The notes under the pieces are model-generated. The model had not been told where the DNA came from, searched no databases, and saw only the letters and a list, made by a program, of their open reading frames with translations. A stretch of DNA of 64,000 nt. Origin: Herbidospora cretacea (GTDB lineage Bacteria > Actinomycetota > Actinomycetes > Streptosporangiales > Streptosporangiaceae). The stretch covers positions 62,001-126,000 of the forward strand of contig NZ_BBXG01000012.1 in assembly GCF_001570605.1 (NCBI RefSeq). Reading direction: 5' to 3'. Of the stretch, positions 14,534 through 30,480 are shown piece after piece. The translations under genes and the position numbers were made by a program. Numbering within the stretch: position 1 is the stretch's first letter; every line of letters begins with the position of its first letter.

Positions 14534-15460
14534 GTGTTGATCAGCGCGCTGGTGATCGCGATGGCGGCGGTCCCGTTCCCCATCGGGAAGGTCACCGAGA
14601 TCCACCTCCCCGGAACCGAGGTGACCGTCTACGAACGGTCGTCGGACCTCAAGGTCGTGACCTCGTACTACCGGGGCAAGAAGCGCCCGAACGCCTTCCT
14701 CCGCGCCCCCGGGACCGACACGTTCAAGGAGCAGGCCGACAAGTGGCGGGTCGCGGTCTCCCCTGACGGCATGCGCGTGATGGCCGTCAACAACCTGCTG
14801 GACGAGCGGGACTGCGAGACCTTCCAGATCTACGGCCACCAGGTCGGCTCCATCCGCTCACTCGACTTCCCGGGCATCTGCGCGCCGTATCACGGCGGCT
14901 GGTTCGGCTGGTCGTCCGACAGCGAGAAGATCGCCCAGCTCGTTTTCATCGAGGAGGGGCAGCGGTCGGGTTTCCTGACGATCGACGCCGACACCGCCAA
15001 GGCCACTTTCGTGAAGATGCCGAAGTCGTGGAACGACTTCCGCTACATGTGGGCCCCCGACGGGAAACAGCTCCTCGCCTCCGACGGCAAGACCATCCGC
15101 TTCGTCTCCCCGGACGGAAAACTCAAGCGCACCCTCAAGGGCAAGGGCCCCCTCCTGGCTGCGGAACACACGTTCTCACCGAAGGGCGACCGGTTCGTCA
15201 CCGCCTGCCCTGATTTCGACGTCTGCCTCTGGTCGGTCAAGACGGGCAAGGCGGCCGGGGTCGTCCCGGTGCCCAAGGGCGGCATGACCGTGCACGACTG
15301 GTGGGACGACGACCACCTGATCGTGTCGCGGGTGCGCGGCGACAAGGTGAAGGAGTTCGTCGTGATGACCCTGAAGGGAAAGGTGACCCGGGTCCTCGCG
15401 GACGTGCCGAAGAAGAGCTACGACGCCGACGGCCTGGAACTGGAGTTCACCCGGCGGTAG
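14534..15460 (+). CDS. Secreted beta-propeller protein, paralogue 1
   Basis: A 308-residue protein with a short signal-like start (LISALVIAMAAVPF) and repeated WD40/PD40-like strands, such as WRVAVSPDG, WAPDGKQLLASDGKTIRF, HTFSPKGDRFVTACPDF and VCLWSVKTGKAAG. It should fold as a beta-propeller on the outside of the membrane or in the cell wall. No catalytic motif is visible, so a binding role is likelier. The next gene is a close paralogue in the same orientation, duplicated with its promoter. Confidence 0.75.
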   Translation: MLISALVIAMAAVPFPIGKVTEIHLPGTEVTVYERSSDLKVVTSYYRGKKRPNAFLRAPGTDTFKEQADKWRVAVSPDGMRVMAVNNLLDERDCETFQIYGHQVGSIRSLDFPGICAPYHGGWFGWSSDSEKIAQLVFIEEGQRSGFLTIDADTAKATFVKMPKSWNDFRYMWAPDGKQLLASDGKTIRFVSPDGKLKRTLKGKGPLLAAEHTFSPKGDRFVTACPDFDVCLWSVKTGKAAGVVPVPKGGMTVHDWWDDDHLIVSRVRGDKVKEFVVMTLKGKVTRVLADVPKKSYDADGLELEFTRR

Positions 15461-15515: not shown

Positions 15516-16409
15516 GTGTTGATCAACTTAGCGCTGGCGCTGACCCTCGTCCTCCCGGACACCGGCGTCACCGTGTACGAGAAGCCGTCCGACCGTCTCG
15601 TGGTCACCTCTTACCACCAGTACAAGAAGACCGCGAAGGCATACCTGCGGGGGAACGGGAGCAACTCGTTCCAGCGGAAACCCCGCCATTGGCGGGTCGC
15701 GGTCTCCCCGGACGGCAGACGCGCGATGGCCGCCAGCGCTTTCGTGGACGGAAAGGGCTGCTCGAGTTTCGACCTGATCAATCGCCGGACCGGAGCCACC
15801 CGCCACATCCCGGTGTCCGGTCTCTGCGGCAAACTCGCCGGCGGCTATTTCAGCTGGTCGCCGGACAGCCGGAAGGTCGTCCAGCTGGCCTTCGTACGGA
15901 AAGGCGAGACGAAAGCCGAAGTGAAGGGCTACCTGACGATCGACGCCGGCAGCGGCGGAACCCGATATGTGGCGATGCCCAAGTCGTATAAGGACGCCCG
16001 TTTCATCTGGACCCCCGACGCGAAACAGATCGTCGCCTACGACAAGAAGAGCATCCGCTTCCTTTCTCCGGACGGGAAACTGCGGCGCACCCTCACCGGC
16101 AAGGGCCCGCTGGCCGGGGAGGAGAACACCTTCTCCCCATCGGGGGATCGCTTCCTCACCGGCTGTCCCGACGGCGGCATCTGCATCTGGTCCGTCAAGA
16201 CGGGCGAGGAGGTCGGCCGCGTTCCCACGAGCTACCACGGCGTGTTCGGCTGGTGGGACTCCAGCCATCTGATCATCGGGCGGACGTCCGGGAAGAAACA
16301 CGAGTTCGTGCAGGTGGACATGGACGGCAAGGTGATCCGCGTCCTGGCGAGCGGGCCGCTGTCCAGCTACACGAAGAATCGCGTGGAACTCCACTACACC
16401 AGGCGCTGA
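15516..16409 (+). CDS. Secreted beta-propeller protein, paralogue 2
   Basis: A 297-residue protein with the same plan as the preceding gene: hydrophobic start (LINLALALTLVLP), TVYEKPSDRLVVTSYH, WRVAVSPDGRRAMAA, FSWSPDSRKVVQLAF, FIWTPDAKQIVAYDKKSIRF and ICIWSVKTGEEVG. The matching strands and the matching upstream sequence show a tandem duplication followed by divergence. The function is unknown. Its 3' end faces the DUF817 gene; only about 16 bases are non-overlapping between gene bodies because the latter ends at 16394, so the two convergent genes overlap slightly. Confidence 0.75.
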   Translation: MLINLALALTLVLPDTGVTVYEKPSDRLVVTSYHQYKKTAKAYLRGNGSNSFQRKPRHWRVAVSPDGRRAMAASAFVDGKGCSSFDLINRRTGATRHIPVSGLCGKLAGGYFSWSPDSRKVVQLAFVRKGETKAEVKGYLTIDAGSGGTRYVAMPKSYKDARFIWTPDAKQIVAYDKKSIRFLSPDGKLRRTLTGKGPLAGEENTFSPSGDRFLTGCPDGGICIWSVKTGEEVGRVPTSYHGVFGWWDSSHLIIGRTSGKKHEFVQVDMDGKVIRVLASGPLSSYTKNRVELHYTRR

Positions 16410-17229: not shown

Positions 17230-18168
17230 ATGGACAGCAGGGAGCGTGTCGCCGGAGCGGTCGTCGGTTCGGCGGTGGGCGACGCCCTCGGAGCGCCGTT
17301 CGAGTTCGGCCCGGCGGGTGCGTTCTCCGCTCGCTTTCCCGTCTCCGGGGTCGAGAACGAGATGCGCGGAGGCGGCGGCTGGGATCCCGGCGAGGCGACC
17401 GACGACACCCAGATGGCCGTCCACGTCGCCGAGTCGCTGCTGGAGCGGGGCGGCCTCGACCCGCAGGACGTCTTCGCCCGCTTCCAGCGCTGGGCGGCCG
17501 ACGACCCGAAGGACATCGGCTTGCAGACCGAAGACGTCCTGACCCGAGGGCTGCCCTGGAACCAGGCCGCCGAGGCCCATTACCGATCGACTCATCATGC
17601 GGCGGGCAACGGTTCCCTCATGCGGGCGACCACGGCGGCGGTCTACTTCGCCCCGCAGGGCCGCCACGCCACGATGGACGCGGCCCGTCGCATCTCGGCC
17701 CTCACCCACGGCGACCCGGCGGCCGGCGAGGGCACCGCGATCTTCCACGACCTGCTGCGCGCCGCCCTGACCGGCGCGGACCCGCTGAAGGAACTCCCGC
17801 ACACTCTCGCCGCCGTCCACGCCGACCATCGCGAGCGATACGCCAGGGTCACCTCTCCCACGTGGCATCCGGCCGAGGCGACGGAGTTCAACGGCGCGGT
17901 CTGGCCCTGTCTCGGCTCGGCGCTGTGGGCGTTGCGCACCACCGGCGGCTACGAGGAGGCCGTCCGCGCCGCGATCGACCTGGGCGGTGACACCGACACC
18001 CTCGCCGCCGTCACCGGCGCCCTGGCCGGAGCCGTCCACGGCCAGTCCGCGATCCCGGCCCGATGGACGGACCCGCTCCACGTCCCCTTGCCGGGAGGCG
18101 ATGGCCGGGTCCTCCGGCTGGCCGACCTGCTGGAACTCAGCCGATCGCTGACGCGGCCGGCCAGCTGA
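17230..18168 (+). CDS. ADP-ribosylglycohydrolase (DraG-like)
   Basis: A 312-residue enzyme of the ADP-ribosylglycohydrolase family. It carries the two binuclear-magnesium motifs: DDTQM near residues 58-62 and GGDTDT near residue 256, plus GSAVGDALGAPFE at the N-terminus and NGSLMRATTAAVYF. It removes ADP-ribose from proteins or small molecules. No ADP-ribosyltransferase gene is nearby, so the substrate is open. A strong hairpin lies between its 3' end and the convergent PKS gene. Confidence 0.92.
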   Translation: MDSRERVAGAVVGSAVGDALGAPFEFGPAGAFSARFPVSGVENEMRGGGGWDPGEATDDTQMAVHVAESLLERGGLDPQDVFARFQRWAADDPKDIGLQTEDVLTRGLPWNQAAEAHYRSTHHAAGNGSLMRATTAAVYFAPQGRHATMDAARRISALTHGDPAAGEGTAIFHDLLRAALTGADPLKELPHTLAAVHADHRERYARVTSPTWHPAEATEFNGAVWPCLGSALWALRTTGGYEEAVRAAIDLGGDTDTLAAVTGALAGAVHGQSAIPARWTDPLHVPLPGGDGRVLRLADLLELSRSLTRPAS

Positions 18169-18229: not shown

Positions 18230-21200
18230 TCAGCCGCCGAAGGCGGGCATGGGGTCGGGGGTGGGTTCCGGTTTGGCGGCCGGGGTCGCTGTGAGGAGGA
18301 GTTCGACCAGGCGGTCGGCGATGGCGGAGATGGTGGGCTGCTGCCACAGCAGGGTCGCCGGGAGGCGGCAGCCGAAGCGTTTCTCCAGGCGTCGGCGGAC
18401 CATGACGGTCATGACCGAGTCGAGGCCCTGTTCGACCAGGGGGCGCCGGATCGACAGGTCGTCCGGGGCCAGTCTCATGACGGCCGCGATCTCCGCGCGG
18501 ATCTCCGGCAGGACGCGTTCGCGCAGGTCCTCGGGGGACAGGCCGGTGAAGGACTCCGCCGGGCCCGCGAGGTCGTCCTCCGCCTGGAGGGGGGCGTCGA
18601 TGACCGGGTAGCGCAGGCCCGTGAGGTGGCCGACGACCCGGCCGTCGACATCGGCCAGGGTGGCCCGGGCGGTGTCGTCGGCGGCGGGGTCCACGGCCGC
18701 GTCGATGATCACTGTGGTGGGCGGGGCGCCGGTCAGGACCATCTCGTCGATGTGGACGACCATGCGCAGCACCGGGTCTCCGGGGAAGACGCACGGGGCG
18801 ACGGACATGACCGCGTCCAGAGCGGGGGCCCAGCTCGACGCGTCGCCGGTGCGGACCGTGGCGCGCAGGGCGCCGTCGCCGGCCAGCAGGGTGCCGATCG
18901 TCCAGTCGAAGCCCGTCGACGGGACGCCGACGGCGGCCAGGCGCTGGTGGACGTAGCCGGGATCGATCTCCACGAGGCCGTCGGCGGCGGGGAGGACGTC
19001 GGGTTTGGCCTGCCCGGGGGCGGCCACGTTCGCGGTGACGTGCACCAGCCAGGCCGGTTCGGGCTCGTCCGGTGCGGCGGGGGTGCGGGCGGCGAGCCGG
19101 ACGACCGGGGGTTCGTGCACGACCTGGATCTGGCGGCGTTCGGCCGTCATCAGGGGGTGCATCATCTCGACGTCGGTGAGGGTGACGTCCTCGTCCTCGG
19201 CGGCGTGCAGGAAGGTGTTGACCAGCACGGCGGCCGGGACGATCTCGATGCCGTTGAGGGTGTGGCTGCCCGGGTAGGGGCGGTTGGCGTCCTCGACGCT
19301 GGTCCGCCAGACCCGCGTCCTGCTGCCCGCGAGGCTGGTGCCGGCGCCGAGCAGGGTGAAGGAGCCGACGTCGTGGCCCCGGTTGTCGTTCTCCAGGTAC
19401 GACTCGCGCCAGTGGCGGCGGTGCTGCCACGCGTACGGCGGCAGGTCGGCCAGGTCGCCGGACGGCTGGAGGCGGCTCCAGTCGACGTCGACGCCGTGAC
19501 AGTGCGCCGTGCCCACTGCGACCAGGAAGGTCGCCAGTTCGGGCTGGTTGCGGCGGAGCGACGTGCCGACGAAGACGTCCTCGAAACCGGCCTCCGACAG
19601 CGTCTCGGTCACCGAGTGGGCGACCACGGGGTGGGAGCCGATCTCCAGGAACACGCGGTGGCCGTCCTGCGCGGCGGCGGTCGTCGCCGCGGCCAGCCGC
19701 ACCGGGTCGCGCAGGTTGGCGGCCCAGTACGCGCCGTCCAGGACGGAGGTCGAGCGGGGGTCGGGCAGCGCGGTCGAGTACATCGGGATCCGCGGCGCGC
19801 CGAAGGTGAGGCCGGCGGTCCGGGCGGCCAGCTCGACCGCCAAGGGTTCCATCTGAGGGCTGTGGAAGGCGACGTCCGAGGCCACCCGGCGGGCCACGAT
19901 GCCCTCGCCCGGCCAGTCGTCGACGACCTCCTCGACGGCGGCGACGTCGCCGGACAGCACCGTGGAGCCGGGCGCCGACGAGATCGCGGCGACCAGGTCG
20001 GTGCGGCCGGCCAGCCGGTCGGCCGCCTCCTCGAAGGACAGGTCGACCATGACCATGGCCCCCTTGCCCTCCGCCTGGCGCAGCAGCACGGAGCGGCGGC
20101 AGATCAGCCGTGCGCCGTCGGCGACGCTCATCGCGCCCGCGGTCACCGCCGCCGCGATCTCGCCGACGGAGTGGCCGATGACGGCCTTCGGCGTGACGCC
20201 GTAGGAGTTCCAGAGCCGCGCGAGGCCGAGCTGCATCACGAAGATCATGGTCTGGACGCGGTCGATGCTGTCGAGATCGCCGTCGGTCAGGACCTGCCGG
20301 GGGGAGAAGCCGATCTCCTCCTGGAAGATCGGCTCGACCTCGTCGACGAGGGAGGCGAACTCCGGCACGGCGAGCAGCTCCCGCCCCATCCCGCGCCATT
20401 GGCAGCCCTGCCCGGAGAACACCCAGACCGGCCCGGGGCCCAGGTCGGGCAGCACGTCACCGGTGAGGATCGCCTCGCCGGGCACGTCGTCGGCGAGCCT
20501 GCGCAGGCCCGCCACCAGCTCGCCCGCGTCCGATCCGATCACGACGGCGCGGCGGGGCAGATGGGTGCGCCGCAGGGCGAGGGTGTGCCCGGCCGAGGCC
20601 GGGTCGAGGCCGTCGCCGAGGGCGTCGGCGAGCTTCCCGGCGTACTGCCGGAGCGCCTGCTCCGAGGCGGCCGACAGCGGGAAGAGCTCCCCGGCCGTCC
20701 CGGGCCGGGACGTCTCGGGGGCCGGCGGGGCCTGCTCCAGCACGATGTGGGCGACCGTGCCGCCGTACCCGAAGCTGGAGACGCCCGCGCGGCGGGGGTG
20801 GTCGCGTTCGGGCCATTCGGTACGTTCGGTCACCACCCGCAGGCCCGAGGTCTCCCATTCGATGGCGGGGTTCAGGCTGGTCAGCACGCTCGGCGGGATC
20901 GCGTCCCGGTGGAGGGCGAGCACGGCCTTGATCACGCCGGAGATGCCGGCGGCGCCTTCGAGGTGACCGATGTTCGACTTGACCGAGCCGATGAGGCACG
21001 GGTCGGCGGGGGAGCGCCCGATCCCGTACACGGAGGAGAGGGCCCCGGCCTCCAGCGGGTCGCCGAGGCGGGTGCCGGTGCCGTGGGCCTCGATGTAGTC
21101 GACGGTCGACGGGTCGACGCCCGCCTGCCGGCACGCCCGGGTCATCACGTGGGCCTGGGCCTCGCCGCACGGCGCCATGATGCCCTGGGTGTGGCCGTCC

Positions 21201-22009
21201 TGGTTGACGGCGCTGCCGATGACGAGCGCGAGGATCCGGTCGCCGTCGCGCTGCGCGTCCGACAGGCGCTTGAGCACGACCACGCCGACGCCCTCGCCGC
21301 GGCCGTAGCCGTCGGCCGACGCGTCGAACGACTTCGACCGGCCGTCGGGGGCCAGCGCCCCGGCGGTGCCGAGCGTGAGGGTCTGGCCGGGGGTGACCAG
21401 CAGGTTCACCCCGCCCGCGAGGGCGACGTCGTTCTCGCCGAGGCGCAGGCTCTGGGCGGCCAGGTGGAGCGCGACCAGCGACGCCGAGCAGGCGGTGTCG
21501 ATCGCCATGCTGGGGCCGCGCAGGTCCAGGGAGTAGGAGATGCGGTTGGCGACGGCGCAGGTCGCGGCGCCGATGCCGGTCCAGGCCTCGATCTGGGGCA
21601 GGTCCTCCAGGAGGCGGGCGCCGTAGTCGCCGGTGCAGATGCCGACGAACACCCCGGCGTCGGTGCCGGCCAGCGAGTGCGGCGGCAGGCCGGCGTGCTC
21701 CAGGGCCTCCCAGGCGGTCTCCATCAGGATCCGCTGCTGGGGGTCCATCAGTTCGGCCTCGCGGGGGGAGACGCCGAAGAACTCCGCGTCGAAGCCCTCG
21801 ATGTCGTCCAGGAAGCTGCCGTGCCGCACGGCGTCGCGCAGCGCGGCGGCGTATTCGGGGCTGCGGTTCTCGTCCCGGCGCCAGCGCTCGGCGGGCAGCG
21901 GCCGGGTGGTGTTCCGGCCGGCGTTCAGCAGGTCCCAGAACTCGTCCGGCGAGTGGACGTCCCCGGGCAGGCGGCATCCGATCCCGATCACGGCGACTGG
22001 TTCGGCCAT
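18230..22009 (-). CDS. Iterative type I PKS, orsellinic acid synthase-like (KS-AT-TH/DH-ACP)
   Basis: A 1259-residue single-module synthase. KS: about 3-425 with Cys174 (DTACSAS), His309 (EAHGTGT), His349 (NIGHLEG). AT: about 525-830 with Ser614 (GHSVGEI) and an AFHS motif at 714-717, the malonyl-type signature. TH/DH: about 885-1135 with His916 (HTLNGIEIVP) and Asp1065. ACP: about 1160-1240 with Ser1198 (GLDSVM). There is no ketoreductase. This order and length match bacterial orsellinate synthases such as AviM and CalO5. The ATG at 22009 has an AAGGGA site; 22039 is an alternative start. Last gene of the four-gene operon. Confidence 0.92.
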   Translation of the reverse strand: MAEPVAVIGIGCRLPGDVHSPDEFWDLLNAGRNTTRPLPAERWRRDENRSPEYAAALRDAVRHGSFLDDIEGFDAEFFGVSPREAELMDPQQRILMETAWEALEHAGLPPHSLAGTDAGVFVGICTGDYGARLLEDLPQIEAWTGIGAATCAVANRISYSLDLRGPSMAIDTACSASLVALHLAAQSLRLGENDVALAGGVNLLVTPGQTLTLGTAGALAPDGRSKSFDASADGYGRGEGVGVVVLKRLSDAQRDGDRILALVIGSAVNQDGHTQGIMAPCGEAQAHVMTRACRQAGVDPSTVDYIEAHGTGTRLGDPLEAGALSSVYGIGRSPADPCLIGSVKSNIGHLEGAAGISGVIKAVLALHRDAIPPSVLTSLNPAIEWETSGLRVVTERTEWPERDHPRRAGVSSFGYGGTVAHIVLEQAPPAPETSRPGTAGELFPLSAASEQALRQYAGKLADALGDGLDPASAGHTLALRRTHLPRRAVVIGSDAGELVAGLRRLADDVPGEAILTGDVLPDLGPGPVWVFSGQGCQWRGMGRELLAVPEFASLVDEVEPIFQEEIGFSPRQVLTDGDLDSIDRVQTMIFVMQLGLARLWNSYGVTPKAVIGHSVGEIAAAVTAGAMSVADGARLICRRSVLLRQAEGKGAMVMVDLSFEEAADRLAGRTDLVAAISSAPGSTVLSGDVAAVEEVVDDWPGEGIVARRVASDVAFHSPQMEPLAVELAARTAGLTFGAPRIPMYSTALPDPRSTSVLDGAYWAANLRDPVRLAAATTAAAQDGHRVFLEIGSHPVVAHSVTETLSEAGFEDVFVGTSLRRNQPELATFLVAVGTAHCHGVDVDWSRLQPSGDLADLPPYAWQHRRHWRESYLENDNRGHDVGSFTLLGAGTSLAGSRTRVWRTSVEDANRPYPGSHTLNGIEIVPAAVLVNTFLHAAEDEDVTLTDVEMMHPLMTAERRQIQVVHEPPVVRLAARTPAAPDEPEPAWLVHVTANVAAPGQAKPDVLPAADGLVEIDPGYVHQRLAAVGVPSTGFDWTIGTLLAGDGALRATVRTGDASSWAPALDAVMSVAPCVFPGDPVLRMVVHIDEMVLTGAPPTTVIIDAAVDPAADDTARATLADVDGRVVGHLTGLRYPVIDAPLQAEDDLAGPAESFTGLSPEDLRERVLPEIRAEIAAVMRLAPDDLSIRRPLVEQGLDSVMTVMVRRRLEKRFGCRLPATLLWQQPTISAIADRLVELLLTATPAAKPEPTPDPMPAFGG

Positions 22010-22029
22010 CTGCGTTCGTTCCCTTCGGT

Positions 22030-23073
22030 TCAGACCCATTGAGGCCTGTCGATCATTTGGATCACGGCGCAGGAGACGGTCACTCCCGGCCCGGTGCCCA
22101 GCATCAGCATGTGGTCGCCGGGGCCCAGCTCCCCGGTGGTGAGCAGGTGGTCGAGCGAGAGCACCTGGTCGCTGGCCCCGCAGTGGCCGATGGTGCGGCC
22201 GTAGTCCCAGGTGGAACGGGACATGGGCAGGTCGAGCATGGCCATGCAGCGCTGCTCGACGATCTCCTCGGAGTAGTTCATGAACGCCACCCGGGTGAGG
22301 TCGGCGGCGTCGATCCCGCTCTCGTCGAGCGCGCGCTCGACGACCTCCATCAGCGCCCGCTGGATCTTGAACAGCGCCGCGGTGGCCTCGCCCTTGGACG
22401 TGACCTGCTGCCGGAACTGCTCGTTCCTGGCCGCGAAGCTCATCTTGCGCCCGACCGTGACACCCGGCGGGAACAGCGGCTCGCTGCCCCGGTGGAGCTC
22501 CTCCGCCTCGGTCACCGTCGTCGTGCAGACCGACGTCAGGCGCGCGAAGCCGGTCTCCTTGGAGAGCACGAGCGCGCTGGCGGCGTCGCCGCCGATGTAG
22601 CCGGGGCCCATCCGCCACCGGTCCATCAGCGGGGTGCCGTAGTTGTCGGCGGCGACCAGCAGGGCGGCCCGGCGGCCGGGCGCGGCGTCCAGGTGGCCGG
22701 CCGCGAGCTCCAGGCCGATGAAGACGCCGTTGCAGCCCTGCCGGATCTCGGTGGCCAGCACGTCCCCGCCCACCAGGTGACGCTGCAGGTAGGAGTGCGG
22801 GGGCCAGCCGTCGGGTCCCTGGTGCCAGGTGGAGGCGTACAGGAGGAGGTCGAGGTCCCCGGGGGCTTGGCCGCTGCGCTTGAGCGCGCTGCGCGCGGCG
22901 TGCAGGGCCATCTCGGGAGCCGGCAGGTCACCGGCCACCACCGCCCCGGCGAGGTTGTGCAGGTCGGCCTCCTCGGCCGGGTACCAGCCCTTGGCCACGG
23001 CCTTCTCGACGCTGACGACCGTCCGGGGGACGAAGGCCCCCACGCCGCTGATGTACGTGTCCGCGTAGCGCAT
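22030..23073 (-). CDS. KAS III-like acyltransferase B (ChlB6/AviN-type)
   Basis: A 347-residue thiolase-fold protein of the KAS III group found beside iterative aromatic PKSs. The active cysteine is Cys114 (EIRQGCNGV). The usual catalytic histidine region reads RVAFMNYSEE, with Asn266 where the sister protein has His265. The third position is GHCGASDQ with Asp302 in place of the asparagine of true KAS III. In CerJ, ChlB3 and ChlB6, such proteins transfer acyl groups to an ACP or a sugar hydroxyl and do not elongate chains. The start overlaps the ACP stop, and the stop is 20 bases before the PKS start. Confidence 0.85.
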   Translation of the reverse strand: MRYADTYISGVGAFVPRTVVSVEKAVAKGWYPAEEADLHNLAGAVVAGDLPAPEMALHAARSALKRSGQAPGDLDLLLYASTWHQGPDGWPPHSYLQRHLVGGDVLATEIRQGCNGVFIGLELAAGHLDAAPGRRAALLVAADNYGTPLMDRWRMGPGYIGGDAASALVLSKETGFARLTSVCTTTVTEAEELHRGSEPLFPPGVTVGRKMSFAARNEQFRQQVTSKGEATAALFKIQRALMEVVERALDESGIDAADLTRVAFMNYSEEIVEQRCMAMLDLPMSRSTWDYGRTIGHCGASDQVLSLDHLLTTGELGPGDHMLMLGTGPGVTVSCAVIQMIDRPQWV

Positions 23074-23324
23074 CAGACGGATTCGAGTTCTCTGACCAGC
23101 GCCACGATGGTCGTGACGTCCTGGAAGTTCTCGGATTCGAGCTTGGCGGCCGGGACCGGGACGCCGACGTCCTTGCGGAGGAAGTTCAGCAGCCGGGCCG
23201 TCCGCAGCGAGTCGAGCAGACCCGACGTGAGCAGCGGGGTCGTCTCGTCGACGGTGATGTCGTCGCCGTCCTGGACGAGGTTCTCCTGGATGAAGTCGAC
23301 CAGCTTCTGGGTGAGCTCGGTCAT
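23073..23324 (-). CDS. Discrete acyl carrier protein
   Basis: An 83-residue ACP. The phosphopantetheine serine is in GLLDSLRTARLL, about residue 38, within the typical helix II start, and helices I and III are recognisable (LVDFIQENLVQ; FQDVTTIVALVREL). The start ATG overlaps the upstream KAS III stop (ATGA) and its stop overlaps the next start, so the three proteins are made in fixed proportion. By analogy with ChlB2 in the chlorothricin pathway it would hold the aromatic acyl group between two transfers. Confidence 0.9.
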   Translation of the reverse strand: MTELTQKLVDFIQENLVQDGDDITVDETTPLLTSGLLDSLRTARLLNFLRKDVGVPVPAAKLESENFQDVTTIVALVRELESV

Positions 23325-24373
23325 GCGCGTGCCCCAGTCGTGACGGGAGAGGTGGACAGGACCCGGAAGACCGCCGCGGCGCAGGACGTGCCGGAGCCGA
23401 AGCCGACCATGAGCAGGTGGTCGCCCTCCACCAGGCCGCCGGTGGCGAGCAGGTGCTCGAAGGCGATGAACTGGTCGACCGCGCCGCAGTGGCCCACGCG
23501 CCTGCCGTAGTCCCAGGTCGTCTGGTCCTCGTCGATGCCGAGCCAGGACATCTGGCCGTCGAGGTCCTCGCGGCGGCCGTGCGGCAGCGCCACCTTCGTG
23601 ATGTCGGACAGGGCGATGCCGGCCTCGTCGAGGGTCTTCTCGACCTGCTGCATCATCGTCTTCTGGATCGTCAGGTGGATCCCGGTGCCCTGCTTCTTGA
23701 GCAGCTTCTGGCGGAACTCCTCGTGCCGGTCGCCGAAGCTCAGCCCCACGCCGACGGTGGCGTCCGGGGGGAACAGCGGGTAGCCGCCGTCGTTGACGGC
23801 GTCGGCCTCGGGGATCACCGTCGCGTTCACCGACAGGAGTTCGGCCATGCCGAAGTCCTTGCCGAGCAGGAGCGCGGCGGCGGCGTCGCCGATCAGCGCG
23901 CCGGGGGTCATCCGCCAGCGGTCCACCAGCGGGGTGCCGTGGTTGTCGGAGGAGACGACCATCGCCGTCTGCCGCTCGGGAACGGCCTGCAAGTAGCTCG
24001 CCGCCAGCTCCAGCGAGCTGATCATCCCGACGCAGCCGCTCCGGATCTCGAACGCCGGCACGGCGCCGCCCATGAGGTGCTGCTGCAGGTAGTGCTGCGG
24101 CTGCCAGCCGTTCGGGCCCTGGTGCCACACCGACGGGTAGAGCAGCAGGTCGAGGTCGCGCGGGGACGACTCCTTCCAGCGGTCGTAGGCGTCCAGGACC
24201 GCGAGCCGCGCCATCTCGGGCGCGGGCATGTCGCCCGCGACCGCCGCGCCGATCTGCCGGAATTTCTCGGCCTCCTCGGCCGGGTACCAGCCCTCTCGGA
24301 CCGCGTGCTCGACGCTCACACTTTCCGGAACGTAAACACCGAGACTCCTGACGAACATGTTGGATGTACGCAC
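23321..24373 (-). CDS. KAS III-like acyltransferase A (ChlB3/CerJ-type)
   Basis: A 350-residue thiolase-fold protein and first gene of the operon. Cys114 (EIRSGCVGM), His265 (VALPHGRRED) and Asp300 (GHCGAVDQ) form a Cys-His-Asp set, as known for acyl-transferring KAS III homologues, where the standard KAS III has Cys-His-Asn. It is about 40 percent similar by eye to the second KAS III protein. A role in moving the PKS product onto the discrete ACP is inferred. The start is uncertain: GTG at 24373 or ATG at 24358. Confidence 0.88.
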   Translation of the reverse strand: MRTSNMFVRSLGVYVPESVSVEHAVREGWYPAEEAEKFRQIGAAVAGDMPAPEMARLAVLDAYDRWKESSPRDLDLLLYPSVWHQGPNGWQPQHYLQQHLMGGAVPAFEIRSGCVGMISSLELAASYLQAVPERQTAMVVSSDNHGTPLVDRWRMTPGALIGDAAAALLLGKDFGMAELLSVNATVIPEADAVNDGGYPLFPPDATVGVGLSFGDRHEEFRQKLLKKQGTGIHLTIQKTMMQQVEKTLDEAGIALSDITKVALPHGRREDLDGQMSWLGIDEDQTTWDYGRRVGHCGAVDQFIAFEHLLATGGLVEGDHLLMVGFGSGTSCAAAVFRVLSTSPVTTGARA

Positions 24374-24636
24374 ACGTCCCCTAACTCAACAGGCTTCAGG
24401 ACAGTGAAAAAGCGGCTCATCCGATAAATTTCGGACCCCGGGATATCGAGGGATACCGGCGGGTCAACGAAACAACGGTAAATAGGCTGGCGAGCCGCCC
24501 GGGGCAAACAATAGGGGCGTACTGTCCGGTAAGCAATAAGTTCGGTACGCGACATTCCGTGATCGACATTCAACGGAACGTGTCGAGTTAAGGGAAACGC
24601 TTCCTTGCTCTCGGCTTTTTTCGAAAGTAAAAGGAT
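24374..24636. promoter_or_regulatory. Upstream region of the PKS operon
   Basis: About 260 bases without a gene, relatively AT-rich. They must hold the promoter of the leftward operon. Partial inverted repeats are seen near 24420-24475, for example CCGATAAATTTCGG at 24420 and a GATATC-containing stretch, which could bind a regulator. No cluster-situated regulator gene is present in the window. Confidence 0.4.
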
Positions 24637-24668
24637 GCCGGGCCCACGCCATTCGGCGCGGGCCCGGC
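24637..24668 (-). terminator. Rho-independent terminator of the esterase gene
   Basis: GCCGGGCCC pairs with GGGCCCGGC, with a further four pairs inside and a short ATTC loop. On the minus strand the stem is followed by ATCCTTTTACTTT, a T-rich tail. It lies just downstream of the esterase stop at 24676. Confidence 0.75.
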
Positions 24669-24675
24669 GGGCGCC

Positions 24676-25992
24676 CTACGGCACTCGCGTGCAGACGATG
24701 TTGTTCAGCTTGAACTGGGCCGGAATGGCGTTCGACCCGGTGGCGGTCGCCGAGAAGCCGAAGCTCTGGCTGGACCCCGGGCCGATGTAGGAGTTGTGGC
24801 CGGCGTCACGGGCGGTCACCGCGGCGCCGGTCTGGGTCACCGTGGCGTTCCAGGCGCTGGTGATCTGCTGGTTGCCGCCCCACGTCCACTGGAGGGTCCA
24901 GTTCTGGATCGGGGTCGTGCCGGTGTTCCTGATGGTCGCGGTGCCGTTGAAGGCGCCGGTCCAGGTGCCGGTGGCGTAGGTGACCTCGCAGGCGTTGCCG
25001 AGCTTGAGCCCGCTGCGGATCCAGGTCGTGAAGTTGGCCCAGCTGGGGTGCAGCGTGCCGGTGCTGACGGTCTCGCCGCAGTTGGCGGTGGTCTTCACGG
25101 TCTCGTTGCCGTACTGGGCGGGGTCCATGATCTGGACCATCATGTGGTCGGCCGCCGGGACCGAGACGAACGTGGCGTTGCCGCACTGCGCCTTGATCCG
25201 GTTGTAGAGCAGGACGCTCTGGCCGTGCGGCACCAGGAAGTCGGCCTGGCCGTGCAGGAACAGCAGCGGCGGGTCGCCGGAGTCGACGTAGGTCATCGGG
25301 TTGGCCGCGGCCACCGCCGTCGGGCAGGTCTGGATCGGGCAGCCGACCAGCAGGGACTCCGGGGAGGCGGGCGAGTTGTGGTCGAGCCCCCCGGTGGGCA
25401 GGTTCTGCGAGTTCATCTGCAGGAAGTCGGTCGGCGAGTAGAAGGCGAGCCCGGTGTGGACGGCGCTGGAGACGCCGGTCGTGCCGACGGTGCCCTCCAG
25501 GGCCGCGACGCCGCCGGAGAAGACGGCCATCTGGGTCAGCCAGGCGCCCGACGAGTCGCCCGCCATCGCGAAGCGGTTCGGGTCGAGCTGGTAGGTGGCG
25601 GCGTTGGCGCGCAGCCAGCGGATGGCCGCCTTGATGTCGTGCACCTGGGCCGGGAAGATCGCCTGGGAGCTGTTGCGGACGTTGACCCCGGCCACCGCGA
25701 AGCCCAGCGGGTTGAAGACGGCCGCGATCTCGGCGGCGCCGGCCTTGCTGTCGTCGCTGGTCCAGGCCGAGCCGCTGTGCCAGATGATCAGCGGCCGGGG
25801 CGTCATGCCGGTGGACGGCAGATGGAGGTCCAGCAGGTGCCCCCTGCTGCCGGCCGGTTGTGCGGACGCGTAGGCGATGTCACTGATCACCGCGGCGTGA
25901 GCCGGTGGCGCGACGGCCATGGACACGCCGACGGCGGCCAGCACGGTCATCACCGTGCCGACAACCGTGGCCATACGGATTCGAGCTTGCAT
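24676..25992 (-). CDS. Secreted alpha/beta-hydrolase esterase with C-terminal CBM2
   Basis: A 438-residue exported enzyme. Residues 1-33 are a signal peptide ending PAHA before AVIS. The catalytic domain has an oxyanion-type IIWHSGSAW, the nucleophile elbow GDSSGAW, Asp in HGQADFLVP and His in AADHMM, as in carbohydrate and feruloyl esterases. From about residue 335 a family 2 cellulose-binding module follows (CEVTYATGTWTGAFNG, IQNWTLQWTW, SFGFSATATG). It would act on ester-decorated plant polysaccharide outside the cell. ATG 25992 directly precedes the signal peptide; the longer frame to 26145 has no support. Confidence 0.88.
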   Translation of the reverse strand: MQARIRMATVVGTVMTVLAAVGVSMAVAPPAHAAVISDIAYASAQPAGSRGHLLDLHLPSTGMTPRPLIIWHSGSAWTSDDSKAGAAEIAAVFNPLGFAVAGVNVRNSSQAIFPAQVHDIKAAIRWLRANAATYQLDPNRFAMAGDSSGAWLTQMAVFSGGVAALEGTVGTTGVSSAVHTGLAFYSPTDFLQMNSQNLPTGGLDHNSPASPESLLVGCPIQTCPTAVAAANPMTYVDSGDPPLLFLHGQADFLVPHGQSVLLYNRIKAQCGNATFVSVPAADHMMVQIMDPAQYGNETVKTTANCGETVSTGTLHPSWANFTTWIRSGLKLGNACEVTYATGTWTGAFNGTATIRNTGTTPIQNWTLQWTWGGNQQITSAWNATVTQTGAAVTARDAGHNSYIGPGSSQSFGFSATATGSNAIPAQFKLNNIVCTRVP

Positions 25993-26457
25993 TGTGCGAC
26001 TCCGGTCGGTCGGATGATCGCCGCTTCCCCGGCCGGTCGCCCTGCGAGAACAACGTTCTGCGCCAGTGTCGCGGCTCACATCGGTATGGGCGGGGCGACG
26101 ATATGACACGTAAGTCGCGAAGGTCAAAGGGTTGTTTACATCCATTTAACCGAACAGGAAAAGGGGTCCGAATCGGGCTTTCGGCACCACACAGGGCGCG
26201 AAGGAGCACAGAGCATGCATGGCCCGCACAGGCGGCCGGATACGCGCCTGGGAGGCCTTTCGGGGGCCGCCGTGGCGAGAATTGGACAGCCGCCGGAAAG
26301 TGATGCCGGTTTTACTGACGGTGAATTACGGCGAACACCTGCATCCGGCTGCGTCCGAGAATGAAACTTTCAACCACCTGACCACGTGACAATTTTCCTT
26401 GCCCGCAGTTGGTGATAATGTCCGCCAGTCATGATCTCCACAGGCACAGGAGGACGA
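25993..26457. promoter_or_regulatory. Divergent upstream region, esterase and small peptide genes
   Basis: About 465 bases between divergent genes, without a convincing ORF. For the rightward peptide gene a TGGTGATAAT extended -10 element ends at 26419. For the leftward esterase a GGAGTC ribosome site lies about nine bases before 25992. Confidence 0.45.
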
Positions 26458-26676
26458 ATGCGAAAGGCACGCGCTGTTCTCGTCTCGGCCGCCGTGGTTC
26501 TCGGAACGACGCTCACGATCGGCGCCGCCCCGGCGCACGCCGACCGGCTGGCCGGCGTCTTCAGGGAACACTCGGACTGCGAGCGCGTCGGAACCCAGGG
26601 CGTCAACCAGGACTGGTGGAACGACTACTCGTGCGAGTGGGAGGGCCGCTACCGCTACTACTTCCTGTACGCGTGA
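26458..26676 (+). CDS. Small secreted Trp/Tyr-rich peptide
   Basis: A 72-residue precursor. Residues 1-28 form a signal peptide (MRKAR, hydrophobic core, APAHA cleavage site). The mature peptide is about 44 residues with two cysteines and a C-terminal half dense in aromatic residues (QDWWNDYSCEWEGRYRYYFLYA contains two Trp pairs or singles and five Tyr). An AGGAGG ribosome site is placed well before ATG 26458. I recognise no family. An extracellular signal, inhibitor or antimicrobial role is possible but not shown. Confidence 0.7.
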   Translation: MRKARAVLVSAAVVLGTTLTIGAAPAHADRLAGVFREHSDCERVGTQGVNQDWWNDYSCEWEGRYRYYFLYA

Positions 26677-26751: not shown

Positions 26752-26994
26752 TCAACCGGCCCCCCGGGTGCGCCGGTAGTACGACCACCCGGCGACCGGC
26801 AGCGCGACCATCCACGCGAGGAAGATCGGCAGGCGGCTGGTCAGACCGAGTGACAGGATCCCGCCGAGGACGGCGAGCAGCGCCGGCACCCCGAGATACA
26901 TGGCGCCCGCCGGGATGCCGAGGACACCCTCCTGCGGATAGCCCTCCGTGCCGTGACCGCTGTGATCACGCTGAGGGACGCTCAGTGCGCTCAC
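26752..26994 (-). CDS. Small membrane protein after the ABC-F genes
   Basis: An 80-residue protein with two hydrophobic segments (about 31-48 and 53-68) and a short basic tail (YYRRTRGAG). It starts at a GTG that overlaps the stop of the preceding ABC-F gene (GTGA), so it belongs to that operon. No family is recognised. It could be unrelated cargo or help the resistance phenotype. Confidence 0.55.
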   Translation of the reverse strand: MSALSVPQRDHSGHGTEGYPQEGVLGIPAGAMYLGVPALLAVLGGILSLGLTSRLPIFLAWMVALPVAGWSYYRRTRGAG

Positions 26995-28598
26995 AGCCGG
27001 ACCTCGCGGCCCGTCCACCGGGAGCGGAGCCACCGGTCGTGGCTGGCGACCACGATCGCGCCGGGGCCGGCGCCCAAGGCCTCCTCCAACTCGTCGCAGA
27101 GCCGGGGCGACAGGTGGTTGGTGGGTTCGTCGAGCAGCAGCACCTCGGGCGGGTCGGCCACCAGCAGCGCCAGGGCCAGCCGCCTGCGCTGCCCGACCGA
27201 CAGCTCCCCGACCCGTCTGCCCAGGTCCGGCGGGCCGAGCAGGCCGAGGGAACCCAACGGGACGGCCGCCGCGCGCTCCGGTCCGAGCGCCCCTTCGTAG
27301 ACCTGCCGCGCGGTGCGGTCCGGCCGGTCGAACACGGTGTCCTGGGCCAGCAGCCCGACCGTCAGCCCCGGACGCCGCCGGATGTCGCCGGAGGCGTCCA
27401 GCCGCCCGGCCAGCACGGCCAGGAGGGTCGACTTCCCCGCGCCGTTCGGGCCGGTGACCAGCAGCCGGTCGGCGGCCCGCACGTCGAGGCGGTCGAGCGT
27501 GAGCCTGCCGGGCACGCGGACGTCCCGCAGCGACAGCGCGATCCCGCCGGTGGACGCGGAGGCGAGCGCGGCGGCCCGGAACCGCAGCGGTTCCGGCGGT
27601 TCGGGCACCTGGTCGCGCTCCAGTTCCGCCAGCCGCCGGGCGGCGTCGCGCGCCCGCCGCGAGATCTGGTTCTGCACCCGGCCGCTGGTGTGGCCGTAGC
27701 CCATCTTCTCGTTGTCGCTCCTGAGGCGGCCCGGCGCGACCTGGTGGGCGGTCACCGAGGCCGAGCGGCGCAGATCGGCGAGTTCCTGCTGCTCCTCGGC
27801 GAAGCGCCGCTCCCAGCGCCGCCGCTCCGCCCGCTTCCCCGCCTGGTAGGCGGTGTAGTTCCCGCCGTACCGGACGGGGCCGTCCACCGCCGGGTCGAGG
27901 TCGATCAGGTCGGTGCAGACGGCGTCGAGGAACGCCCGGTCGTGGCTGGCCACCACGACGACCCCGGGCAGGCCGCGCAGCTGCTCCTCGACGAAGGCCG
28001 CCGCCGTGTCGTCGAGGTGATTGGTGGGCTCGTCGAGCAGCAGCGCCGCGGGCCGCCTCACCAGCAGCGCGGCCAGGGCGAGGCGGCTGCGCTGGCCGCC
28101 GGACAGCGTCCCGAGCGCGCGGTCGTGCCGCACCGTCCCGAGGCCGAGCCCGGCCAGGACGATCCCGGCCCGCCGGTCGGCGTCCCAGGCCGCGTGCTCC
28201 TGGGCGTGGTCGAGCCGCTCGCCGTACTCGGCGAGCAGGTCGGCATGCCCGGGGGAGTCCTCCGGGGTGTCGGCGAGCGCCCGGGTGAGCCGGTCGAGTT
28301 CGGCGAGGTCCGCGCGGGCCTCGCGCAGGGCGTCGTCGAGCACGTCGGCGACGGTCGACGCGGCGTCGAAGGGCATCTCCTGGCGCAGGAAACCGAGGTC
28401 CGGGGGCCGGACGACGGTCCCGGCGTCGGGTTCGTCCACCCCGGCGAGCAGCCGGAGCAGGGTGGACTTCCCGGCGCCGTTCTCGCCGATCAGGCCGATC
28501 CGGTGCCCGGGGGCGGCGGTGAGGGAGACGCCGTCGAGGACCCGTCGACCGCCGAATGCGCGGATGAGATCGTTCGCGAGCAGAGCTGAGAGGGACAT
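26991..28598 (-). CDS. ABC-F protein 1 (ribosome-protection type)
   Basis: A 535-residue soluble protein with two ABC ATPase domains and no membrane segment. Walker A motifs are GENGAGKST (about 38-46) and GPNGAGKST (about 385-393). The signatures are LSGGQ and LSVGQ, with Walker B LLLDEPTNHL twice. The linker between domains is charged and helical. ABC-F proteins of this actinomycete group include TlrC and VarM-like antibiotic resistance factors that act on the ribosome; others are translation factors. It begins 12 bases after the second ABC-F gene stops, without a clear ribosome site. Confidence 0.9.
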   Translation of the reverse strand: MSLSALLANDLIRAFGGRRVLDGVSLTAAPGHRIGLIGENGAGKSTLLRLLAGVDEPDAGTVVRPPDLGFLRQEMPFDAASTVADVLDDALREARADLAELDRLTRALADTPEDSPGHADLLAEYGERLDHAQEHAAWDADRRAGIVLAGLGLGTVRHDRALGTLSGGQRSRLALAALLVRRPAALLLDEPTNHLDDTAAAFVEEQLRGLPGVVVVASHDRAFLDAVCTDLIDLDPAVDGPVRYGGNYTAYQAGKRAERRRWERRFAEEQQELADLRRSASVTAHQVAPGRLRSDNEKMGYGHTSGRVQNQISRRARDAARRLAELERDQVPEPPEPLRFRAAALASASTGGIALSLRDVRVPGRLTLDRLDVRAADRLLVTGPNGAGKSTLLAVLAGRLDASGDIRRRPGLTVGLLAQDTVFDRPDRTARQVYEGALGPERAAAVPLGSLGLLGPPDLGRRVGELSVGQRRRLALALLVADPPEVLLLDEPTNHLSPRLCDELEEALGAGPGAIVVASHDRWLRSRWTGREVRL

Positions 28599-28610
28599 GT
28601 GACGTGCGCG

Positions 28611-30236
28611 CTACGACGCGGACTCGTGCAGCACGCCGTCGGAGAGCCGCAGCCTGCGGTCCACCCCGATCTCGGTGAGGAACCGTTCGTCGTGGCTGAC
28701 CACCACGAACGCGCCTTCATAGGCGCTGAGCGCGCTCTCCAATTGGGCGACGCTGACCAGGTCGAGGTTGTTGGTGGGTTCGTCCAGCAGCAGGAGCTGG
28801 GGCGCGGGTTCGGCGTACAGGACGCAGGCCAGGGTGGCGCGCAGGCGCTCGCCGCCCGACAGCGCGCCGACCGGGAGATGGATGCGGGAGCCGCGGAACA
28901 GGAAGCGGGCGAGCAGGTTCATCCGCTGCGCCTGGGGCATCCCGGGCGCGTACGCGGCCAGGTTGTCGGCCACGGTCTGGTCCAGGTCCAGCAGGTCGAG
29001 CCGTTGCGACAGGTAGGCGACCCGGCCGTCGGCCCTTCTGATCTCGCCGCCGTCCGGTTCCAGCTCGCCGCCGATCACCCGCAGCAGGGTGGACTTGCCG
29101 GCGCCGTTGGGGCCGGTGAGGGCGATCCGCTCGGGGCCCCGGATCGTCAGGTCGGCGCCCTCCCCGGCGAAGAGCGCGCGGTCGCCGTAGCTGACCCGCA
29201 TCCCCGTGCCGAGGAACACCGTGCGCCCGGCCGGGACGTGGGTGCCGGGCAGCTCCAGGGTGATCCTCTGCTCGTCGCGCAGGGCGCGGCCCGCCTCGTC
29301 CAGCCGGGCCTTGGCCTGACCGACCCGGGCGGTGTGGGTCTCGTGGGCCCTCCCCGCCGACTCCTGGGCGTTGCGCTTCATCGTCCCGGCGAAGATCTTC
29401 GGCAGGCCGGCGCTCTTGAGGTTGCGGGCGGCGTTGCCGGCCCGGCGCTCGGCCCGCTCGCGGGCCTGCTGCAGCTCGCGCTTCTCCCGCTTGACCTCCT
29501 GTTCGGCGTTGCGGACGTTCTTCTCGGCGACCTCCCGCGCGGCGCGCACGGCCTCCTCGTACGCGGTGAAGTTCCCGCCGTGGAACCGGACCTCGCCCCG
29601 GTCGAGTTCGGCGATCCGGTCCATGCGGTCGAGCAGCGCCCGGTCGTGGCTGACCAGCAGCAGGCAGCCGGTCCAGTCGTCGAGCGCCTCGTAGAGCCGG
29701 TGGCGGGCGTCGAGGTCGAGGTTGTTGGTCGGTTCGTCGAGCAGCAGGACGTCGGGCCGTTTCAGCAGCTCGGCGGCCAGGCCGAGCGAGACGACCTGAC
29801 CGCCGCTGAGGGTGCGCAGCGGCCGGTCGAGGGTGACCTCGCCCAGGCCCAGCCGGTCGAGCTGGGCGCGGGTGCGCTCCTCGATGTCCCAGTCGGTTCC
29901 GATCGTGGTGAAGTGCTCCTCGCTCGCGTCACCGGACTCGATGGCGTCCAGCGCCCTGACGACCTCGGCGATCCCGAGGACCTCCGCCACGGTCAGGTCG
30001 CGGGCGAGGGGCAGCGTCTGGGGCAGGTAGCCGAGCACCCCCTCCACCGTGACGGAGCCGGTGGAGGGTCGGAGCGCGCCGGCGATCAGCCTGAGCAGGG
30101 TGCTCTTGCCCGCGCCGTTGGGGGCCACCAGGCCGGTCCGGCCGGCCGGGACGGTGAACGAGAGCTCCTGGAACACCGGGGTGTCGTCGGGCCAGGAGAA
30201 GGACAGGTTGGAGCAGACGACGAACGCGTCGGACAT
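28611..30236 (-). CDS. ABC-F protein 2 (ribosome-protection type)
   Basis: A 541-residue twin-ATPase protein: Walker A GLVAPNGAGKST and TGPNGAGKST, signatures LSGGQVVSLG and LSGGERLRAT, Walker B LLLDEPTNNLDL twice. The inter-domain linker is long and helical (AAREVAEKNVRNAEQEVKREKRE), the part that reaches the ribosomal peptidyl-transferase centre in resistance ABC-F proteins. It is the first gene of a three-gene leftward operon. A leader with a short upstream ORF and hairpins precedes it. ATG 30236 is chosen over 30251 because a GAGG site lies nine bases ahead of it. Confidence 0.9.
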   Translation of the reverse strand: MSDAFVVCSNLSFSWPDDTPVFQELSFTVPAGRTGLVAPNGAGKSTLLRLIAGALRPSTGSVTVEGVLGYLPQTLPLARDLTVAEVLGIAEVVRALDAIESGDASEEHFTTIGTDWDIEERTRAQLDRLGLGEVTLDRPLRTLSGGQVVSLGLAAELLKRPDVLLLDEPTNNLDLDARHRLYEALDDWTGCLLLVSHDRALLDRMDRIAELDRGEVRFHGGNFTAYEEAVRAAREVAEKNVRNAEQEVKREKRELQQARERAERRAGNAARNLKSAGLPKIFAGTMKRNAQESAGRAHETHTARVGQAKARLDEAGRALRDEQRITLELPGTHVPAGRTVFLGTGMRVSYGDRALFAGEGADLTIRGPERIALTGPNGAGKSTLLRVIGGELEPDGGEIRRADGRVAYLSQRLDLLDLDQTVADNLAAYAPGMPQAQRMNLLARFLFRGSRIHLPVGALSGGERLRATLACVLYAEPAPQLLLLDEPTNNLDLVSVAQLESALSAYEGAFVVVSHDERFLTEIGVDRRLRLSDGVLHESAS

Positions 30237-30480
30237 GGCGAGAGACCTCATGGGTGAGGAGGGCGTGCGGAAGACGCCCGGCGGAGACGGGGAAAGGGTG
30301 GAACGACGACATGGCCACGGCGGCGTACGCCTGCCTGCGGCTCATGGCTTTCCGGTCTCAGCCGGAGATGTCGTCGTCAGCCACCATGTCTGGTCTCCTG
30401 GTCTCCGAGATGCCGACGTAGTCGGCGGCCATCATGGTGCCAAAGGCGTCAAACCTCGTCAACATGAATAGGGCCGCAGG
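30237..30480 (-). promoter_or_regulatory. Leader of the ABC-F operon, candidate attenuator
   Basis: About 240 bases between the ABC-F start and the NmrA-like gene. Read leftward it has two overlapping TTGACG boxes (30462-30447), a nine-codon ORF with its own AGGAG site, an inverted repeat TCCGG/CCGGA at the ORF stop, a perfect GGGCGT/ACGCCC hairpin and a small CCTCA/TGAGG hairpin (30259-30246) whose 3' arm is the GAGG ribosome site of the ABC-F gene. This resembles translation-attenuation leaders of other ABC-F and Erm resistance genes. Confidence 0.5.
30358..30387 (-). CDS. Leader peptide ORF (nine residues)
   Basis: ATG at 30387 is seven bases behind AGGAG (30399-30395) and encodes MVADDDISG before a TGA. 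It is too short to be a gene by itself but is well placed for a regulatory leader peptide. A second, out-of-frame ATG frame from 30345 runs across the ABC-F start. Confidence 0.45.
   Translation of the reverse strand: MVADDDISG

Follow-up and report, generated by a model that had tools for sequence, protein, structure and literature searches.

A stretch of 64,000 nt of the Herbidospora cretacea genome (contig NZ_BBXG01000012.1, positions 62,001 to 126,000 of the forward strand; here called the window, with coordinates counted from its first letter) carries a compact gene group built around an iterative type I polyketide synthase (PKS). Four genes on the reverse strand encode two acyltransferases that resemble β-ketoacyl-acyl carrier protein synthase III (KAS III; here A and B), a free acyl carrier protein (ACP) and the PKS, and they are accompanied by genes for a secreted esterase and a small secreted peptide. 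In our preferred reading, the locus makes aryl-sugar esters, with trehalose as the probable sugar, and includes an enzyme that works outside the cell. The genome around the window comprises 8.28 Mb in 36 contigs, and loci, genomes and contigs are referred to below, where needed, by L, G and C numbers.

Gene content and conservation of the locus

The features at the locus are as follows.

23321-24373, reverse strand: KAS III-like acyltransferase A, 350 amino acids, GTG start, proposed ACP-to-acceptor transferase; best PDB match ChlB3 (7eqi), 339 bits
23073-23324, reverse strand: free ACP, 83 amino acids, PP-binding by Pfam, ChlB2-like by position
22030-23073, reverse strand: KAS III-like acyltransferase B, 347 amino acids, proposed PKS-to-ACP transferase; best PDB match ChlB3 (7eqi), 481 bits
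18230-22009, reverse strand: iterative type I PKS, 1259 amino acids, with (by Pfam) ketosynthase (KS), acyltransferase (AT), product template (PT) and ACP regions and without ketoreductase (KR) or thioesterase (TE); proposed orsellinate synthase
18572-19384, reverse strand: PT (aldol cyclase) region of the PKS; single PDB match, the PT domain of AviM (7VWK)
24676-25992, reverse strand: secreted BD-FAE esterase with C-terminal CBM2, 438 amino acids, by Pfam; fifth gene of the unit
26458-26676, forward strand: small secreted two-cysteine peptide, 72 amino acids, divergent, in the same position in all 25 loci; sixth gene of the unit
24637-24668, reverse strand: terminator-like hairpin 3' of the esterase gene, with a 14-pair stem and a T-rich tail
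17230-18168: ADP-ribosylglycohydrolase, by Pfam, in the flank

The ACP gene overlaps A by 4 bases, B overlaps the ACP gene by 1 base and the PKS starts 20 bases past B, as described in the first-pass annotation of this DNA; an alternative in-frame ATG of the PKS at 22039 would create an overlap with B. Pfam also confirmed the identities given there to the two flanking genes, the ADP-ribosylglycohydrolase and the secreted esterase. The esterase gene, listed at 24676-26145, was shortened to the start common to most of the aligned loci, which gives 24676-25992.

A search with B fetched 78 loci, among which 24 carry B at 86-94% identity (the near loci) and the others at no more than 65%. All 24 near loci are from Streptosporangiaceae, namely Herbidospora, Nonomuraea, Acrocarpospora, Streptosporangium, Sphaerisporangium, Microbispora and one genome titled [Actinomadura] parvosata. 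The window and every one of the near loci share a single gene order, i.e., the divergent small secreted peptide, the esterase, A, ACP, B and the PKS, with exceptions in the PKS of three loci (cut by a contig end in L006, with a broken frame in L022 and matched in two pieces in L020). The peptide gene was found by gene calling in 18 of the 25 loci and by tblastn in all 24 near loci. The unit, hereafter the island, spans approx. 8.4 kb in the window and approx. 8.3-9.0 kb across the loci other than L006. Among 251 neighbour genes called outside the unit within approx. 6 kb per side (less on one side in L006, L008, L016 and L017), none recurred beyond 3 of the 18 non-Herbidospora loci, and embedding in a larger common cluster was not seen within this distance on either side of the block. 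The first-pass annotation had proposed a comparison across related genomes for a further gene that travels with the four biosynthetic genes, and two such genes emerged; the esterase and the peptide are the fifth and sixth genes of the unit. The treatment of the esterase as a mere flank was thus not upheld, as it adjoins the four-gene block in 25 of 25 loci.

The polyketide synthase

Pfam identified KS, AT, a weak PKS_DH_N and PP-binding domains in the PKS, which agrees with the KS, AT, thioester hydrolase/dehydratase-type region and ACP of the first-pass annotation. KR was not found by Pfam, in the same search that scored this domain at 193 bits in L072, a relative of a longer class described below. 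The residues His916, Asp1065 and Ser1198 were correctly assigned and correspond to 920, 1069 and 1202 in a reading that starts four codons upstream. The domain order, KS-AT-PT-ACP without KR, TE or a starter-unit acyltransferase (SAT), is that of AviM. Moreover, the region after the AT had a sole PDB match at E values up to 1, 7VWK (258 bits), which is the PT domain of AviM; according to the accessible text of the study describing it, this domain closes the C2-C7 ring of orsellinic acid and a mutant in His949 loses orsellinate (PMC9135731). The equivalents of AviM His949 and Asp1104 align in the island PKSs; among 25 rows, 24 have the His and 23 the Asp, with gaps in the alignment accounting for the others.

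The PKS genes found near relatives of B fall into two size classes, approx. 1240-1280 and approx. 1620-1810 amino acids; size outliers in the near group are L020 (1381 amino acids) and L023 (1365 amino acids), with L006 and L022 incomplete. In a PKS tree of 56 rows, which omits L022 (broken frame), L006 (contig end) and PKS matches below 50% identity, the 28 short rows without KR, including the window, stand apart from the 28 long rows with KR, which resemble synthases of 6-methylsalicylic acid (6-MSA), with the exception of one long-branch long row, L039, that falls among the short rows; KR status in this tree was assigned by length, with Pfam showing KR present in L072 and absent in L028 and L029. 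The window PKS therefore does not group with the long 6-MSA-like class. It is well supported as an orsellinate-type synthase, with an acetyl starter assumed, and we infer that its product is orsellinate and not a homologue.

In some Nonomuraea copies, the PT was matched only piecewise, with the frame open, near residue 1000 of the L020 PKS and in the PKSs of G280 and G169. These copies may make something else or nothing.

The proposed acyltransferase relay

The closest known counterpart of the remaining biosynthetic genes is the chlorothricin pathway, in which ChlB3 moves 6-MSA from its PKS onto the free ACP ChlB2 and ChlB6 places it on the scaffold, with a Cys-His-Asp triad named for ChlB3-type acyltransferases in the accessible text of that work (PMC9573744). 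The locus resembles it in that two KAS III-like transferases and a free ACP adjoin a PKS without TE. The best PDB match of both transferases is ChlB3, with a weaker score for A. The triad is Cys114/His295/Asp300 in A and Cys114/His297/Asp302 in B, and both triads as well as the ACP serine are kept in 25 of 25 loci. Together with the domains, the PT match and the PKS tree, these triads support the first-pass proposal of an orsellinate-type PKS combined with a chlorothricin-type relay of two enzymes and one ACP. B would load the ACP from the PKS and A would unload it to the acceptor; the higher ChlB3 score of B than of A (481 versus 339 bits) only hints at this direction. The chlorothricin relay differs from the proposed one in that 6-MSA is the product of ChlB1 and the chlorothricin scaffold receives it (PMC9573744, accessible text), and A was set against ChlB3, not ChlB6.

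In a KAS III tree of 93 rows, which omits 12 of the 24 near loci for size, island A pairs with the A of a related A-B-PKS cluster (the sister cluster; support 100/99) and island B with the B of the same cluster (99/91). This pairing of A with A and B with B means that the two transferases were already distinct before the island and the sister cluster split.

A relay with no acceptor would leave a free acid, orsellinic acid or a depside, as the product, with A and B merely releasing it and the linkage of the esterase incidental. ChlB3 does hydrolyse the N-acetylcysteamine thioester of 6-MSA (6-MSA-SNAC; PMC9573744, accessible text), but two acyltransferases and an ACP are excessive for release and the esterase stays linked in 25 of 25 loci despite unlike flanks, so that we regard this possibility as very unlikely.

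The acceptor and the proposed pathway

Brartemicin, 6,6'-bis(2,4-dihydroxy-6-methylbenzoyl) trehalose, is described from Nonomuraea in the accessible text of PMC4393326, and its structure is two orsellinoyl groups on trehalose; the diester has the formula C28H34O17 and an [M-H]- of 641.172, and the mono-ester would by calculation give approx. 491.14. It requires an orsellinate synthase and acyl transfer to trehalose, as proposed here for the island. We hold with moderate confidence that the locus makes orsellinate and relays it to trehalose, giving brartemicin-type esters, with an extracellular stage that involves the esterase. In this pathway, the PKS would assemble a chain from one acetyl and three malonyl units, which the PT domain would close into the C2-C7 ring to yield orsellinoyl-S-PKS, for the release of which there is no thioesterase; B would transfer the orsellinoyl group via its Cys to the free ACP and A would carry it on from there to the hydroxyl of a sugar. 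This sugar would most likely be trehalose, acylated once or twice to give brartemicin (6,6'-diorsellinoyl trehalose) or a near relative. Outside the cell, the exported esterase would act on the aryl-sugar ester, most simply by hydrolysis, and the small secreted peptide would be part of the same extracellular phase.

One brartemicin producer, Nonomuraea strain C10 (genome VPFF00000000), has 99% 16S rRNA identity to N. harbinensis; it was sequenced to find the brartemicin cluster and the genome announcement names none (PMC6838623). N. harbinensis has the island (L009/G277). Its genome yielded one PT match at E 1e-12, with all 35 candidates scored, and A and B were alone at E 1e-80 among the best 7 of 22 candidates in a search with B. 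Literature searches found no gene cluster assigned to brartemicin, with limited coverage of subscription journals, so that an assignment may exist. The kind of system is already known, and the gene combination and the proposed brartemicin link are what is new as far as checked.

Across 297 sampled genomes of the family, for which up to 7 candidates per genome were scored for B and for the esterase, B at at least 86% identity was found in 27 genomes, and all 27 carry two GT20 genes each. Trehalose made by the cell would require no further gene, which fits the absence of other common neighbours of the island. Trehalose from primary metabolism is the probable acceptor on this circumstantial evidence. 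The description of the locus as an orphan that misses its acceptor pathway is then probably wrong, since trehalose as the acceptor would make linked genes for a glycosyltransferase, a deoxysugar or a scaffold unnecessary.

The sister cluster also bears on the sugar. It is represented by L028, L118-L121 and L123-L125, with L028, L107 and L108 as tree rows and the other loci joined by identity and common neighbours. Its A and B are sister clades of island A and B, and the island differs from it by the ACP and the esterase, neither of which had a match in the 21 kb of L028 or in L107 and L108 (4 kb each). The L028 PKS, without KR by Pfam, is the nearest tree row outside the island PKSs (support 91, not starred, on a long branch). 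The cluster carries an aromatic-ring hydroxylase, a PhyH protein and a P450, and some of the genomes add GT20, transketolase, cupin and SIS genes. The sister GT20 (247 bits by Pfam) has a trehalose-phosphate synthase as its best PDB match, with VldE also listed. Of the 10 genomes with a sister B, 4 have it (G090, G091, G152 and G175), with copies 84-88% alike, on the same contig and strand as B and approx. 6-7 kb away; sister A is listed in 9 of these 10 genomes.

In L120, L121 and L123 (as on contig C17 of G091), the sister cluster runs on into this trehalose-phosphate-synthase/VldE-like enzyme, which is preceded in the three loci by the N part of a transketolase and followed in L120 by cupin-like and SIS proteins. 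The GT20-bearing form appears equipped to make an unusual trehalose-like sugar and to acylate it.

Several points weigh against the brartemicin proposal. GT20 also matches in 6 of 14 control genomes, which makes its presence in 27 of 27 island genomes a weak test, and no GT20 was linked to the island of the window when the L123 protein was searched in the window and all fetched loci, where it matched only L120, L121 and L123. Six of the 10 genomes with a sister B, all of the Nonomuraea group, are without the cluster GT20, and one of these six (G280) shows no sister PKS or A. None of the six genes of the unit encodes an exporter. The CBM2 of the esterase fits a polysaccharide surface as readily as a soluble disaccharide. 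The loci were compared by sequence and not tied to any chemistry, and the link to strain C10 runs via N. harbinensis, with which 99% 16S rRNA identity does not equate it. The island is spread over several genera (27 of 297 genomes), whereas Nonomuraea is the sole brartemicin source named in the accessible literature. Finally, the PKS type is uninformative on the acceptor, because AviM and CalO5 serve quite different acceptors. AviM itself, from Streptomyces viridochromogenes, is alike in its KS-AT-PT-ACP build without KR, SAT or TE and in the PT with its catalytic His and Asp, but feeds avilamycin, whereas the window PKS belongs to a unit of six genes, none of them for sugars or a scaffold.

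An acceptor encoded elsewhere in the genome was also considered, i.e., a complex scaffold such as the product of a giant modular PKS. Contig C1 of the same genome carries, at 154860-315530, a very large region of modular PKS genes, approx. 161 kb long, with 35 KS matches and open frames of up to 7678 amino acids, and decoration of a scaffold is what ChlB6 does in the chlorothricin pathway (PMC9573744, accessible text). By comparison, KS matches at E 1e-40 number 57 in the H. cretacea genome but only 13, 12, 20 and 21 in four other island genomes (G277, G206, G149 and G031, respectively), by which a giant modular PKS as the common source of the acceptor is rejected, and no scaffold gene is common to the near loci within the flanks seen. 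We consider a scaffold acceptor highly improbable.

If trehalose is the acceptor, the KAS III relay would acylate a free primary metabolite instead of a dedicated scaffold, and what looked like a PKS without an acceptor would give a concrete hypothesis on brartemicin biosynthesis. This compound is a ligand of the macrophage receptor Mincle and its lipidated derivatives are adjuvant candidates, according to the accessible text of sources including PMC4393326. The small size of the unit, approx. 8.4 kb with four biosynthetic genes, suits heterologous study.

The secreted esterase and peptide

The secreted esterase and the secreted peptide are constant partners of the biosynthetic genes, which from one genome pass for unrelated flanks. 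The BD-FAE domain of the esterase was matched by Pfam at 176 bits, along with CBM2, and its catalytic Ser (residue 147 of the 438-amino-acid form), Asp and His are all kept in 25 of 25 loci. Its N-terminus carries a putative signal peptide, judged by eye from the alignment, and its nearest PDB relatives include acetyl xylan and carbohydrate esterases. It shares domain and Ser-Asp-His triad with the BD-FAE family and differs by its tie to a biosynthetic unit. Since feruloyl esters join an aromatic acid to a sugar, a sugar that bears an orsellinoyl group makes a plausible substrate, and by this analogy the esterase would act on the product of the pathway.

The substrate could also be a polymer, with the orsellinoyl group going to a cell-envelope glycan, a glycolipid or an extracellular polysaccharide on which the CBM2 esterase trims or moves aryl esters. 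The relationship of the esterase to acetyl xylan and carbohydrate esterases and its CBM2 are consistent with such an acceptor, as are the presence of the island under six genus names besides [Actinomadura] parvosata and the lack of an exporter among the six genes. On the other hand, a trehalose diester is a known product of the same family, while we know of no orsellinoylated envelope polymer; the island is patchy in Nonomuraea (B in 17 of 54 genomes), unlike an envelope trait, and some sister clusters have GT20. We judge a polymer acceptor unlikely, if still worth considering.

Doubtful, too, is the possibility that the esterase works as an acyltransferase outside the cell in the manner of antigen 85, converting mono-orsellinoyl trehalose to the diester or moving the aryl group to a surface glycan, with A making the mono-ester only. 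Its intact triad, the secretion signal seen by eye and its linkage in 25 of 25 loci would suit this role, and brartemicin is a symmetrical diester; however, BD-FAE is a hydrolase family, close to carbohydrate esterases in the PDB, and A could acylate both ends of trehalose itself. Hardly more probable is a version in which the island is the brartemicin pathway and the CBM2 esterase and the peptide together disproportionate aryl-trehalose to the diester or deposit aryl groups on surface polysaccharide. The extracellular stage would then be an aromatic, PKS-fed counterpart of the antigen 85 and trehalose-mycolate system of mycobacteria. We favor a trehalose ester on which the esterase acts most simply as a hydrolase.

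Paralogues of the esterase at approx. 52-60% identity are found in L115-L117, where no match to A, B, ACP or PKS was found within the 16-19 kb fetched. Weaker relatives of the peptide occur outside the island, bringing the genomes with a match at E 0.001 to 62 of 297; two are in the H. cretacea genome, on contig C4 at 545099 and on contig C2 at 412882.

Distribution and possible transfer of the island

The catalytic part of the esterase is found at at least 71% identity in the same 27 genomes as B and in G294, the next esterase being at 60%, and the 28 best copies of the peptide are island copies from these same 28 genomes. G294 looks like it holds a decayed copy of the island. In the 19 kb fetched from it (L114, contig C82), only the esterase, the peptide and approx. 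the first 98 residues of A remain, with no match to ACP, a full B or the PKS. G294 also carries sister A and B.

Pairwise dN/dS values (nonsynonymous over synonymous divergence) against five loci were 0.09-0.23 for A, B and the PKS, 0.33-0.44 for the esterase, 0.18-0.55 for the ACP and 0.42-0.805 for the peptide; the biosynthetic enzymes are kept by selection, with greater drift in the secreted parts. In the KAS III tree, both transferases of Acrocarpospora phusangensis (L006) cluster with those of Herbidospora instead of with Acrocarpospora row L021, a placement suggestive of intergeneric transfer. For A, B and the PKS, dS between the window and N. harbinensis (0.26-0.35) is similar to that within Herbidospora (0.20-0.33), and dS of a neighbouring ABC-F-like gene within Herbidospora is 0.35-0.52; as a sign of island transfer this comparison is suggestive only. 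On account of the differing flanks beyond the six genes and the tree placement of L006, simple synteny is rejected as the reason why the esterase is linked. The island is a compact and probably transferable unit.

N. gerenzanensis has the island on NZ_LT559118.1, at 86% DNA identity over 92% and with all six genes. An antiSMASH cluster 17 of the 6-MSA/orsellinic acid (OSA) type, lowered at alkaline pH, is reported for this species in the accessible text of PMC5431353; that this cluster is the island copy is unproven.

Other features of the window

Apart from one conserved stretch where A begins, alignment of the intergenic regions showed little conservation. This stretch, GAGTTAGGGGACGTGTG at 24369-24388, is nearly invariant in the 25 loci and the remainder of the gap is variable. 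The terminator-like hairpin at 24637-24668 is the one found in the region, and shuffled sequences give a mean of 2.0, so that it is weak evidence by itself; with this hairpin behind it, the esterase may be transcribed apart from the four biosynthetic genes.

Two related gene pairs lie elsewhere in the window. The tandem pair at 14534-15460 and 15516-16409 is apparently a local duplication, and an adjacent pair of related ATPase genes at 26991-30251, ABC-F-like by eye, neighbours the island in the Herbidospora loci only.

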